This document shows, piece after piece, positions 61,668-64,000 of a DNA stretch of 64,000 bases (within the stretch, counting starts at the first letter, position 1; each line of letters starts with the position of its first letter). This DNA is from Kosakonia oryzae (GTDB taxonomy: Bacteria > Pseudomonadota > Gammaproteobacteria > Enterobacterales > Enterobacteriaceae): positions 1,922,001-1,986,000 of the forward strand of contig NZ_CP014007.2 in NCBI RefSeq assembly GCF_001658025.2, in the 5' to 3' direction. The notes below the pieces were generated by a model, which was given only the letters and a program-made list of their open reading frames with translations, did no database searches and was not told the DNA's origin. Both the position numbers and the translations under genes were made by a program.

Positions 61668-62042
61668 ATGAATCACAGAAAAGAACTTATCATCAACGTA
61701 ATCGCGTGGATTAATCGCAATATCCAGTCGCCAATGAAAATTGATGATGTCGCAGCCAGATCCGGCTATTCAAAATGGCACTTACAGCGACTGTTTTTTG
61801 CGGAAACGGGCCAGAATCTGGGGCAGTTTATCAGGGAGAGAAAGCTAAGTTTAATTGCCGAGCAATTAATTACCTCCAATGAGTCATTAATCAATCTGGC
61901 CATGAAATATGGCTTTGATTCTCAGCAATCATTAACCCGGGCGTTTCACAAAAAATATCAACTGCCGCCGCATAAATACAGAAAGACATTTTTCCGCCAG
62001 CCTTTTGATGATTTACATACCGACGTAAAACCACGGAAATAA
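61668..62042 (+). CDS. MarA/SoxS/RamA-type AraC regulator
   Basis: A 124-residue, stand-alone double HTH protein without sensor domain. MKIDDVAARSGYSKWHLQRLF is helix-turn-helix one and LAMKYGFDSQQSLTRAFHKKY is two, closely like RamA/SoxS. Such proteins activate mar/sox/rob regulon promoters (efflux, porin control), and their own level is the signal. It sits 40 bases after the pump operon, so it may be cotranscribed and tie it to a stress response. Which of the known paralogues it represents is not clear. Confidence 0.87.
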   Translation: MNHRKELIINVIAWINRNIQSPMKIDDVAARSGYSKWHLQRLFFAETGQNLGQFIRERKLSLIAEQLITSNESLINLAMKYGFDSQQSLTRAFHKKYQLPPHKYRKTFFRQPFDDLHTDVKPRK

Positions 62043-62140: not shown

Positions 62141-62175
62141 GTACCAGGATAGTGCGTGCTGCACTGACATAATGC
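62141..62175 (+). promoter_or_regulatory. tandem NtrC-like binding sites
   Basis: Two dyads each match nine of ten bases of the NtrC consensus GCACY-N5-RGTGC: GTACC-AGGAT-AGTGC (62141-62155) and GCACT-GACAT-AATGC (62161-62175). Their centres are 20 bases apart, two helical turns, and about 110 and 90 bases before the inferred transcription start of the sigma-54 promoter, where NtrC enhancers normally lie. Confidence 0.6.
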
Positions 62176-62230
62176 GTATTCACCTCGCCATCCTGCCCCT
62201 TTAGCCGCTTTCTCTGCGGTTTTTAAAAGC

Positions 62231-62246
62231 TGGCACATCAATTGCT
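62231..62246 (+). promoter_or_regulatory. sigma-54 promoter of the NCS1 transporter operon
   Basis: TGGCAC-ATCAA-TTGCT is an exact match to the -24/-12 consensus TGGCAC-N5-TTGCW. Transcription would begin near 62257, giving a leader of about 139 bases. With the NtrC-like sites it predicts activation under nitrogen limitation. Confidence 0.8.
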
Positions 62247-62279
62247 TTCTCAACGATACCGCATCCTGCATGGCAGGAA

Positions 62280-62295
62280 CAGGCACCGTAGCCTG
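62280..62295 (+). promoter_or_regulatory. hexaloop hairpin in the NCS1 leader (ANTAR-target-like)
   Basis: Five-base-pair stem CAGGC / GCCTG closing the six-base loop ACCGTA. A at loop position 1 and G at position 4 are the conserved bases described for ANTAR-protein target hairpins. It lies 24 bases into the predicted transcript. A second loop of the same type caps the terminator hairpin downstream. Confidence 0.45.
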
Positions 62296-62348
62296 GCAAG
62301 CGGCTTGTGGCGATGAGCCACTCCAGTACATCGATTTCAGGCGAAGAA

Positions 62349-62384
62349 GCCCTGCCGGCAATGCTGTCGGCGGGGCTTTTTTTT
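62349..62384 (+). terminator. leader terminator (attenuator) before the NCS1 transporter
   Basis: An eleven-base-pair stem (62349-62359 with 62366-62376, two G-T wobbles) closes the six-base loop AATGCT and is followed by eight Ts (62377-62384). The transporter ATG is only 12 bases further on. CAGGC (62338-62342) could instead pair with GCC-CTG (62349-62354), an antiterminator-like alternative. The placement inside the leader implies regulated readthrough. Confidence 0.75.
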
Positions 62385-62395
62385 GGAGTAAATCT

Positions 62396-63889
62396 ATGAG
62401 CAAGTTAAAAGCATGGTTTCAGGGTCCACAAGATATCACTGAAGCAGAAGCCGTTGAGGATTACGCAGTTGGCCGCGTGCCGTCGCACTATCGCTGGCCA
62501 ATTCCGGCCATTATTCTGGTGCTGCTCGGCAACTCGACCGCCATGTTCTGGTTCAGCCTTGGCGCGGACATGAGCTATCAGGTCGGCTGGCCCATGTTGC
62601 TGCTGCCGATTGGTTATATGGTGGTGTTCGCCACCATCATTGGCTCCTGCATCATGAAGATGGCGAGCAAAGAGGGACTTTCACTCAATCTGATGACGCG
62701 CGGGTTGGGATTCGGCTATATGGGATCGGCCTTCACGTCGCTGATTTACGCCGTCAATTTCATCTTCTATTTCCTGTTCGAAGGCACCATTGTTTCTCAC
62801 GCCATCGCCAACTATGCGGGCGTGCCGGTCAACTCGTTTACCGGCATCGCCATCTTTGCGCTGATGGGGCTGGCCGCCATCTGGTTTGTCTGGAAAGGCA
62901 TGTCATCCATGCAATTTCTGCAAACCTGGGGCGTTCCCATTTTCATTGTGCTGTTTGGCTTCTGTATCTGGCAATTAACCCACCACTATCCGGCGGTTAG
63001 CTTCAGCGGTTGGCAGCCAAAAGGGGAGATCGACAGTAACGCCCTGTGGCTGGTGATGAATATGGCCAACGGGCAGATTGTCTTTCAGGGATTGATGGCT
63101 ACTGATTACGGTCGTTTTGCCCGTCCGGGTATTAGCCATAAAGGCACTGCCACCATCATGCTGGGGATGCTGATCCCGATTGTGGTGGTTATGCTGTTTG
63201 GCGCGTTTATGGCCTACACCTTGATGCCGCATATTCAGGGCGCAGATGTCTGGTCGCTGGCGCTCGATCCGGGCTTCGTCTTCCCGCTGATTATTGGTCT
63301 GACCGGCGTGTTATTTGCGGTGATTACCCAGATCCGCATTAACGTGCTCAATCTCTACTCGGGGTCGATTGCACTGTCGAATACCATGGATATGGCGTTT
63401 AACTATCGCCCGGGACGTCAGTGGTGGATGTTGCTGGTCTGGTTGCTCGGCGTAGTTTTCTACATCTGCAATATCTTGCAATATACCGGCACTTTCCTCT
63501 CCATTACCGGCATTCTCACCAACACCTGGGTGTTTATTATCCTTGCGGATTACTTTATCTGCCGCAAAGTGCTGCACCTTGCGCCATCCGATTTTGTGGA
63601 GTTCCGCAAAGAGTATCTGCGGATGTGGAATCCGTCCGGCGTGATTGCGCTGTGCGTTGCGGTTGCCATAGGTGCGGCTGGCGTGTTGGGCCTGTATCCG
63701 ATGGTGTACGCCTCGTTTATCGCCATGCTGGTTGGCCCGGTGCTGCACGTTGCTATCAGCGTGGCCACTCGCGGCAGCTATTACTTCAAAACCTTCCCTG
63801 AGGACATGCAAACCAACTGGAAACCTTCTGATGCTTATCAGGGGCCGAAACCGGTATTTAATCCGTTACTGAGCAAGGAGGCAGAATAA
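62396..63889 (+). CDS. NCS1-family nucleobase/cytosine-permease-like transporter
   Basis: A 497-residue permease with about twelve membrane segments, of the NCS1 (cytosine/purine/allantoin/hydantoin) family. The segment AIILVLLGNSTAMFWFSLGA near the first helix and FARPGISHKGTATIMLGML are family-like. It imports a nitrogen-containing heterocycle or related compound by cation symport; the substrate cannot be read. ATG 62396 has GGAG (62385-62388) right after the attenuator T-run; an open frame upstream passes through the terminator and is not coding. Stop and next start overlap (TAATG), so it is coupled to a carbon-nitrogen hydrolase. Confidence 0.88.
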   Translation: MSKLKAWFQGPQDITEAEAVEDYAVGRVPSHYRWPIPAIILVLLGNSTAMFWFSLGADMSYQVGWPMLLLPIGYMVVFATIIGSCIMKMASKEGLSLNLMTRGLGFGYMGSAFTSLIYAVNFIFYFLFEGTIVSHAIANYAGVPVNSFTGIAIFALMGLAAIWFVWKGMSSMQFLQTWGVPIFIVLFGFCIWQLTHHYPAVSFSGWQPKGEIDSNALWLVMNMANGQIVFQGLMATDYGRFARPGISHKGTATIMLGMLIPIVVVMLFGAFMAYTLMPHIQGADVWSLALDPGFVFPLIIGLTGVLFAVITQIRINVLNLYSGSIALSNTMDMAFNYRPGRQWWMLLVWLLGVVFYICNILQYTGTFLSITGILTNTWVFIILADYFICRKVLHLAPSDFVEFRKEYLRMWNPSGVIALCVAVAIGAAGVLGLYPMVYASFIAMLVGPVLHVAISVATRGSYYFKTFPEDMQTNWKPSDAYQGPKPVFNPLLSKEAE

Positions 63890-64000
63890 TGCGCATCAAC
63901 GTTGCAACCATCCAGTTTGAACCAACGCAGTTCAGAAAAGAGGAGAACGTCACGCGTCTGCTGGCATTAGCAACCCAGGCCGCGCGTGATGGAGCGCGCT
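63889..64000 (+). CDS. carbon-nitrogen hydrolase (nitrilase superfamily), N-terminal part
   Basis: The gene begins at ATG 63889, overlapping the transporter stop by one base, and runs off the window after 37 codons. INVATIQFEPTQF followed by ENVTRLLALATQAARDGA is the typical first strand and helix of nitrilase-superfamily amidases. It probably releases ammonia from the compound imported by the upstream transporter. AAGGAGG lies just inside the transporter end. The catalytic Glu-Lys-Cys residues are beyond the window. Confidence 0.8.
   Translation, partial: MRINVATIQFEPTQFRKEENVTRLLALATQAARDGAR

Follow-up and report, generated by a model that had tools for sequence, protein, structure and literature searches.

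A candidate AmiC/AmiR-controlled antitermination leader downstream of a sigma-54/NtrC-type promoter in Kosakonia oryzae

We report on an operon of Kosakonia oryzae (contig NZ_CP014007.2) that starts with an NCS1-family permease gene near the right end of the window, i.e. the stretch of 64,000 nucleotides (nt) analysed here (positions 1,922,001 to 1,986,000 of the contig). The operon appears to have a sigma-54/NtrC promoter and an antitermination leader controlled by AmiC- and AmiR-like proteins, with two hexaloop hairpins, P1 and P2, as the predicted targets; we put the probability of this reading at roughly 85%. A first-pass annotation of the window had proposed a nitrogen-type promoter, an attenuated leader and ANTAR control, which by sequence seems right in outline, but the second hexaloop was probably misplaced.

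By analogy with AmiC/AmiR, NasR and EutV we argue here for the start site, for control by NtrC, for a ligand switch, for RNA binding and for antitermination. Under nitrogen limitation the sigma-54/NtrC promoter would drive the permease, CN-hydrolase, amiC-like and amiR-like genes. Without inducer the AmiC-like protein would hold the AmiR-like protein, and RNA polymerase would stop at about position 62384 of the window. Ligand bound to AmiC would free AmiR, whose ANTAR domains would bind P1, and then P2 as P2 emerges. P2, once held, would take GCC(C)TG of the terminator 5' arm, the terminator would be blocked and the operon, including its own regulators, would be transcribed.

The leader RNA and its cognate regulator

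From the sequence one can read the genes with their domains, the conserved sites, which pairings are possible, and that P2 and the terminator exclude each other. The leader has the following elements.

62257, + strand: predicted transcription start, about 12 nt past the -12 GC, where the conserved leader begins (from the sigma-54 element and the onset of conservation)
62259-62303, + strand: three-way junction, P0 (CCGC/GCGG) around hairpin a (62264-62278) and P1; in the minimum free energy (MFE) fold and the consensus fold
62280-62295, + strand: P1, CAGGC-[ACCGTA]-GCCTG, hexaloop with A1 and G4 (G1 and G4 in 4 of 11 loci)
62303-62307, + strand: possible anti-P2 strand GCTTG, which can pair with CAGGC at 62338-62342 (the P2 5' strand)
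62307-62321, + strand: hairpin c, GTGGC-NNNNN-GCCAC
62322-62337, + strand: linker TCCAGTACATCGATTT
62338-62354, + strand: P2 (re-assigned), CAGGC-[GAAGAA]-GCC(C)TG, core GGC-GAAGAA-GCC at 62340-62351; invariant in 11/11 loci
62349-62384, + strand: intrinsic terminator, 11-bp stem 62349-62359/62366-62376, loop AATGCT 62360-62365, eight T's 62377-62384

Both the CAGGC-ACCGTA-GCCTG hairpin and the 11-bp terminator with its AATGCT loop and eight T's lie where the first-pass annotation had put them, and 11 bases separate the last T from the permease ATG at 62396. All 11 Kosakonia and Pantoea loci examined carry the same operon (AmiR at least 79% identical); they are the distinct loci with the whole operon. 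L015, L016 and L063, which duplicate parts of L027, L022 and L028 exactly, were dropped, and the named Pantoea loci L023-L026 stood in for leaders of G460, G440, G441 and G424. Loss of the hexaloops or terminator in homologues, which the annotation had named as grounds for giving up its proposal, was not seen: the sigma-54 element, P1, P2 and the terminator with its apical loop AATGCT are kept in 11/11 loci. In the ten relatives the leader (62257-62376) is 87-99% identical to that of the window (119/120 down to 104/120), four-fold sites of the permease and hydrolase genes are 42-91% identical and the upstream DNA 39-91%; for the four most distant relatives the values are 87-89% for the leader, 42-53% for four-fold sites and 39-47% for the 134 bases upstream.

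The Klebsiella nasF leader is controlled by NasR, and we used nasF leaders, a known type of ANTAR target, for comparison. Leader identity against four-fold identity in nasR was 97-98% at 91-92%, 83% at 64-65% and 56-59% at 52-63% (seven comparisons; 8 of the 24 NasR-match loci, L072-L095, gave a leader by rule and entered the alignment). Since leader identity in the operon is higher at comparable or lower four-fold identity, its leader is, judged by these alignments, more constrained than the nasF leader. Hairpins a and c have freely varying loops (1/5 and 0/5 positions invariant), compared with 13/16 in the 16-nt linker, for which no conserved partner was found in the 11 loci. The RNA between P1 and P2 is nearly invariant.

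P2 has GCC(C)TG at 62349-62354 in common with the terminator 5' arm and is mutually exclusive with the terminator; the P2 core is preceded by CA, like the P1 stem. The fold of 62257-62400 beats all 200 shuffles (z -4.43), as does that of 62336-62384 all of its shuffles (z -5.48), while the fold without the terminator 3' arm (62257-62354) is unremarkable (z -1.64, 10/200 shuffles as good). A simple terminator scan gave four matches, and the leader terminator was not among them. When the RNA was folded as it grows, P2 was in the MFE structure at ends 62352-62356 and 62370-62374 and gone from 62376 on. The full leader with P2 forced to form is about 12 kcal/mol less stable (-50.4 vs -62.2), and therefore a protein would have to hold P2. 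The pairs of the three-way junction are kept in 11/11 loci with little variation and are in the MFE structure of 62257-62400 and of shorter stretches. Hairpin c is absent from that of 62257-62384, where its stretch pairs otherwise. The anti-P2 pairing (GYYTG at 62303-62307) is present in the latter structure and is paired in 55/55 cells in the 11 sequences, with two of five pairs varying, on one side only; shuffles are unable to judge this pairing, which could keep P2 closed off in the terminated state. A leader peptide from the ATG at 62270 was rejected, as it is kept in only 3/10 aligned leaders (the window's own, L014 and L022) and not in L062; the ATG flagged in L024 by a regular expression is at another place (hairpin c).

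The operon comprises four genes.

62396-63889, + strand: NCS1-family permease, 497 amino acids (PF02133, 5.5e-10; NCBIfam ncs1 below its cut-off)
63889-64000 in the window and on to window-equivalent position 65595, + strand: double CN-hydrolase, 568 amino acids (PF00795, two stretches)
65639-66796 (window-equivalent, outside the window): AmiC-like gene, 385 amino acids (PF13433)
66793-67401 (window-equivalent, outside the window): AmiR-like ANTAR gene, 202 amino acids, last gene of the operon

The annotation had suggested looking for an ANTAR gene just right of the window; one is there, at a distance of 2.8-3.4 kb, as the last gene of the same operon. The regulator is of ANTAR type, as it had proposed, but AmiR-like rather than NasR-like, because this gene overlaps an AmiC-type sensor gene, and the two form an AmiC/AmiR-type gene pair. 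The protein carries AmiR_N (PF21332, 34.6 bits, cut-off 27), and not the NIT domain of NasR, together with ANTAR (PF03861, 31.5 bits, cut-off 27.3). The EutV contact residues R142, K143, E160, Y164, R168 and M172 are matched in it, in a correspondence made by motif spacing with the EutV sequence itself outside the alignment.

Ramesh 2012 (PMC3369931) describes the ANTAR target as two hairpins joined by a short linker, P1 first and then P2 at the 5' base of the terminator, with A1 and G4 in each loop. The eut linkers are 5-12 nt there (the linker is 'variable' in the authors' search motif), a 14-nt linker in eutP already impaired induction, and changing A1 lowers induction in eutP. In the report on the EutV-RNA structure (PMC8934654), G4 stacks on Tyr164 and A1 has no specific contact to EutV. 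The Kosakonia operon has a cognate ANTAR-domain protein, with PF03861 above cut-off; two hexanucleotide-loop mini-hairpins, at 62280-62295 and 62340-62351, in 11/11 leaders (the pairing being without covariation proof); G4 in both loops in 11/11; and a P2 that overlaps the terminator 5' arm. Moreover, the pattern CAGGCNNNGNAGYCTG for P1 occurs once in the window against 0.01 expected, the pattern being post hoc, composed once the family had been viewed.

Position of the second hexaloop

Of the two hexaloops in the first-pass annotation the first, P1, stands, but the second, at the terminator apex, is doubtful, and the hexaloop at the terminator base had been missed. The second hexaloop is probably GGC-GAAGAA-GCC at the terminator 5' base; P2 was placed there because a base hexaloop recurs in other ANTAR leaders and in matches to a covariance model. 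Specifically, a hexaloop mini-hairpin at the terminator 5' base is present in 9/9 ANTAR-linked leaders scanned, from seven lineages (including the window's own and P. rodasii), and an A1/G4 apical hexaloop only in the window's own lineage. The hairpins in the place of P2 are GGC-AAAGAT-GCC in L064 and L065, CAGGT-AACGAA-GCCTG in L066, GGC-AATAGA-GCC in L018, AGGC-AATAAA-GCCT in L068, TCAGC-GGCGCA-GCTGA in L020 and GGAC-AACGGC-GTCC in the nasF leader of the K. oryzae genome.

L064 (on the reverse strand) and L065 contain a related operon of hydrolase, AmiC and AmiR genes, which has a sigma-54-like element and a P2 of its own; there is no NCS1 gene in the stretch, and the leader is preceded upstream by an MFS gene of sugar type. 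Their ANTAR domains have Thr at the EutV Met172 position, and that of L064 scores 23.5 bits, below the cut-off of 27.3.

Run over 394 Enterobacterales genomes, a covariance model of the leader (R1) matched two strongly, the own genome and G267, both of which have the operon, and 14 weakly. Because the terminator is part of the model, likeness to it helped the weak matches, which are not independent of it. Ten of the 14 were read: four look like plain terminators, and in six, all from one genus, the terminator base has GGGC-AAAGAA-GCC. An ANTAR gene lies alongside in both weak loci whose neighbours were checked (L104 and L108). L104 (774-1370 and 1500-1720), from another genus, has downstream of its ANTAR gene a leader whose terminator base carries GGGC-AAAGAA-GCCC, and an NMT1-like gene; this is perhaps a nitrate operon.

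As a control we examined 135 terminators, a set drawn from ANTAR and other loci alike that also contains alignment rows, with identical rows counted a single time. A base hexaloop is present in 29, of which 19 have R at position 1 and G at position 4 (R1/G4) and 12 are A1/G4, and base loops of 4, 5, 7 and 8 are present in 16, 7, 13 and 22; 16 of the 19 R1/G4 cases stand in leaders counted as ANTAR-linked and three, by reading, away from ANTAR genes. The control is not clean and serves as a rough guide only, since by its own rule no terminator was found in 4 of 12 ANTAR leaders (L018, L020, nas_L093 and nas_L094).

Several observations weigh against the proposed mechanism. Position 1 is A in 7/11 and G in 4/11 P1 loops, so that of the A1 and G4 read by the annotation in its first loop only G4 is conserved, and it is G in 11/11 P2 loops; the P1-P2 linker is 42-44 nt, with a possible hairpin inside. 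Because these two features of the published motif, A1 and the short linker, are not found, we call the leader a variant of the ANTAR antitermination leader, and it looks as if it works like one; the departure from A1 would be tolerable in theory, as the EutV structure shows no specific contact to A1. On the same motif-spacing correspondence EutV K147, K149, N173, R175 and R177 are S, Q, A, H and T in the AmiR-like protein, and P2 is weak by itself (-4.6 kcal/mol). P1, P2 and the junction are nearly without variation, with no pair changed on both sides and shuffled controls equal. Covariation was dropped as support for them, there being no double-sided change relative to the commonest pair; one terminator pair takes three forms (UG 6, CG 4, UA 1). 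The nine leaders compared for P2 were picked by eye as ending in a terminator; among other AmiR_N loci, L067 has no such leader in the stretches covered, and L069, L070 and L071 were left out. The P2 loop has A instead of G at position 4 in L018 and L068, and no R1/G4 first hexaloop was found by scan in L064, L065, L066, L018, L068 or L020. Finally, the window leader matches nothing in Rfam at gathering score, an absence that is uninformative because the nasF control leader reaches no threshold either.

The Rfam narK RNA family matches both leaders below its threshold (window 62232-62289, 13.6 bits; L004:3432-3524, 23.1 bits; cut-off 43.2), and this family may itself contain ANTAR targets.

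Candidate promoter, operon genes and distribution

Upstream of the leader the following elements were identified, and the dyads and the sigma-54 consensus are present as the annotation had placed them.

62141-62155, + strand: NtrC-like dyad 1, GTACC-N5-AGTGC, 9/10 to GCACY-N5-RGTGC; inner half-site GTGC kept in 11/11 loci
62161-62175, + strand: NtrC-like dyad 2, GCACT-N5-AATGC, 9/10 to GCACY-N5-RGTGC; inner half-site TGCA kept in 11/11 loci
62231-62246, + strand: sigma-54 -24/-12 element TGGCACATCAATTGCT, exact consensus; TGGCRC-N5-TTGCW in 11/11 loci

The dyads form a tandem pair 20 bp apart. Single dyads with at most one mismatch are at chance level (8 in the window vs 9.35 expected), and TGGCACATCAATTGCT is the sole exact match to TGGCAC-N5-TTGCW in the window, with two found and 3.72 expected at no more than one mismatch. 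Taken alone the dyads and the sigma-54 element are within the chance range for a 64-kb window, and their weight lies in their conservation: TGGCRC-N5-TTGCW stands 165-167 bases 5' of the permease start in 11/11 loci, and by alignment the DNA flanking it and the dyad half-sites is not kept among the relatives. The sequence and its conservation would thus fit a sigma-54/NtrC promoter, with single dyads at chance level. Further upstream (61668-62042, + strand) lies a gene for a small AraC-family protein, with RamA and MarA as best NCBIfam matches, below cut-off; by tblastn it is present in L014, L022 and L027, all of them Kosakonia, and was found in none of the Pantoea loci searched; L017 holds little upstream DNA.

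In the first domain of the hydrolase E43, K115 and C148 are retained, which we take to be the Glu-Lys-Cys catalytic triad, and the second domain has Q387 and G419 at the Lys and Cys positions (alignment of four). The AmiC-like protein matches P. aeruginosa AmiC (1pea, 3.5e-54) and also urea-binding proteins; its best PDB match is 8tg1. It has WHSARYEGF where P. aeruginosa AmiC has CYPTPYEGF, a stretch that presumably lies near the amide pocket. Because this stretch differs, the ligand is probably not that of AmiC, and the inducer may be something other than a simple amide. The gap separating the hydrolase gene from the amiC-like gene contains a strong GC hairpin (L003:4096-4139, window-equivalent 65595-65638), and a hairpin of quite different sequence is present at about the same intergenic place in the distant Pantoea loci L023, L025 and L026 (nine loci folded); it may determine how strongly the regulator genes are expressed.

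The AmiR-like protein is 96-97% identical to proteins of Kosakonia arachidis and K. sacchari. This type of AmiR is rare, with 6/394 Enterobacterales genomes at E of at most 1e-8 and two at 92% identity or more (the own genome and G267). It is present in 4/15 genomes of the genus, the own included, and in 10/61 genomes of the genus of G267, taken as Pantoea (seven with at least 79% identity, two with 38% and one with 25%). A scan of named genomes gave seven loci, and a near-mode search of E. coli genomes no match. One relative is on a 927-kb Pantoea plasmid; the distant-mode plasmid search gave one record, Pantoea sp. SOD02.

The operon resembles the P. aeruginosa amidase operon in having an AmiC-like sensor next to an AmiR_N-ANTAR protein and a CN-hydrolase gene, and also in the leader terminator before the first gene, going by the description of the amiE leader in PMC3369931. 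Unlike it, the Kosakonia operon has a sigma-54/NtrC-type promoter, an NCS1 permease as first gene and a double hydrolase with a degenerate second half. With nasF/NasR it has in common the order of sigma-54-type element, P1 and P2 hexaloops and terminator, with P2 at the terminator 5' base, but its regulator is of AmiR type without a NIT domain, its loops are not all A1, and its leader is longer and more conserved. As in the E. faecalis eut leaders there are dual hexaloops with P2 exclusive of the terminator, and E160, Y164, R168 and M172 are common with EutV; the eut system differs in its linkers of 5-12 nt, in having A1 in each of its loops and in being controlled by phosphorylation. The genome's own nasF leader (L004:3431-3570, ~1081430-1081570), with a sigma-54-type element, P1 and P2 both AACGGC, and a terminator, is by its sequence a textbook ANTAR target. 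No title on the Kosakonia/Pantoea operon was among the open-licence literature matches listed.

Alternative readings and implications

The ANTAR protein might instead bind P1 and the apical AATGCT of the terminator, or an array of all three hairpins (P1, P2 and the apical one), which we consider unlikely. The apical loop is A1/G4 and invariant in 11/11 loci, unlike the loops of hairpins a and c, and CCGGC-AATGCT-GTCGG can still form beside a formed P2; but binding the terminator apex would not by itself prevent the terminator from forming, and an A1/G4 apex loop is present in 0/7 of the other-lineage leaders scanned. The invariance of the loop was weakened as proof of recognition, the nasF terminator loop being likewise identical in six Kosakonia sequences. 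We also asked if the leader of about 128 nt is a second functional RNA, given its three-way junction, its conserved linker, the anti-P2 pairing that it could form and a terminator loop that does not vary. It might sense a small molecule alongside the AmiR switch, or it might, when attenuated, be a sigma-54-made small RNA with targets in trans. This is a tentative suggestion with rather low odds; in its small-RNA form the attenuated RNA would accumulate in nitrogen-starved cells without inducer.

It is very improbable that ligand binding by the RNA itself is the main function of the leader, and that AmiR acts elsewhere or only adds to it. A near-invariant leader of 120 nt with a three-way junction and a conserved linker resembles a riboswitch, and it keeps 87-89% identity at four-fold identities of 42-53%, compared with 83% at 64-65% and 56-59% at 52-63% for nasF leaders; yet its core is explained by the cognate ANTAR gene together with P1 and P2, no Rfam family reaches threshold, and the leaders of more distant AmiR operons have, by eye, P2 without the junction. 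Control in trans by NasR in response to nitrate deserves even less credence. Two ANTAR genes were found in the genome (5.4 Mb, single contig), that of the operon and a NIT-ANTAR NasR-like gene upstream of nitrate-assimilation-type genes (neighbour names assigned by eye), and the presumed target of the latter has hexaloops at the same places; but nasF loops are A1/G4 with other letters (AACGGC, AATGGC, AAAGGC), and the operon carries its own ANTAR gene in 11/11 loci. Least probable of all is an ordinary unregulated terminator with hexaloops by chance: base hexaloops away from ANTAR genes and base loops of other sizes were seen in the terminator control, and the dual-hairpin signal is beyond a covariation test, but in 11/11 loci the leader is flanked by the start codon and, on its other side, a conserved sigma-54 element, and its conservation is far above that of four-fold sites.

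The kind of switch that an AmiC/AmiR-controlled leader represents is already known, and what sets this one apart is an unusually long and well-preserved leader. If the proposed mechanism is true, nitrogen status (NtrC/sigma-54) and a substrate sensor (AmiC/AmiR) would act in series on one operon. The leaders would then be a natural set of ANTAR targets that break both the A1 rule and the short-linker rule, and make it testable if A1 matters at all and if the two loops must lie close. Moreover, the operon would point to a so far unnamed nitrogen substrate in Kosakonia and Pantoea. Plant-associated Kosakonia seems to express this operon for nutrient uptake only under nitrogen shortage and once a sensor pair encoded within it frees the leader.

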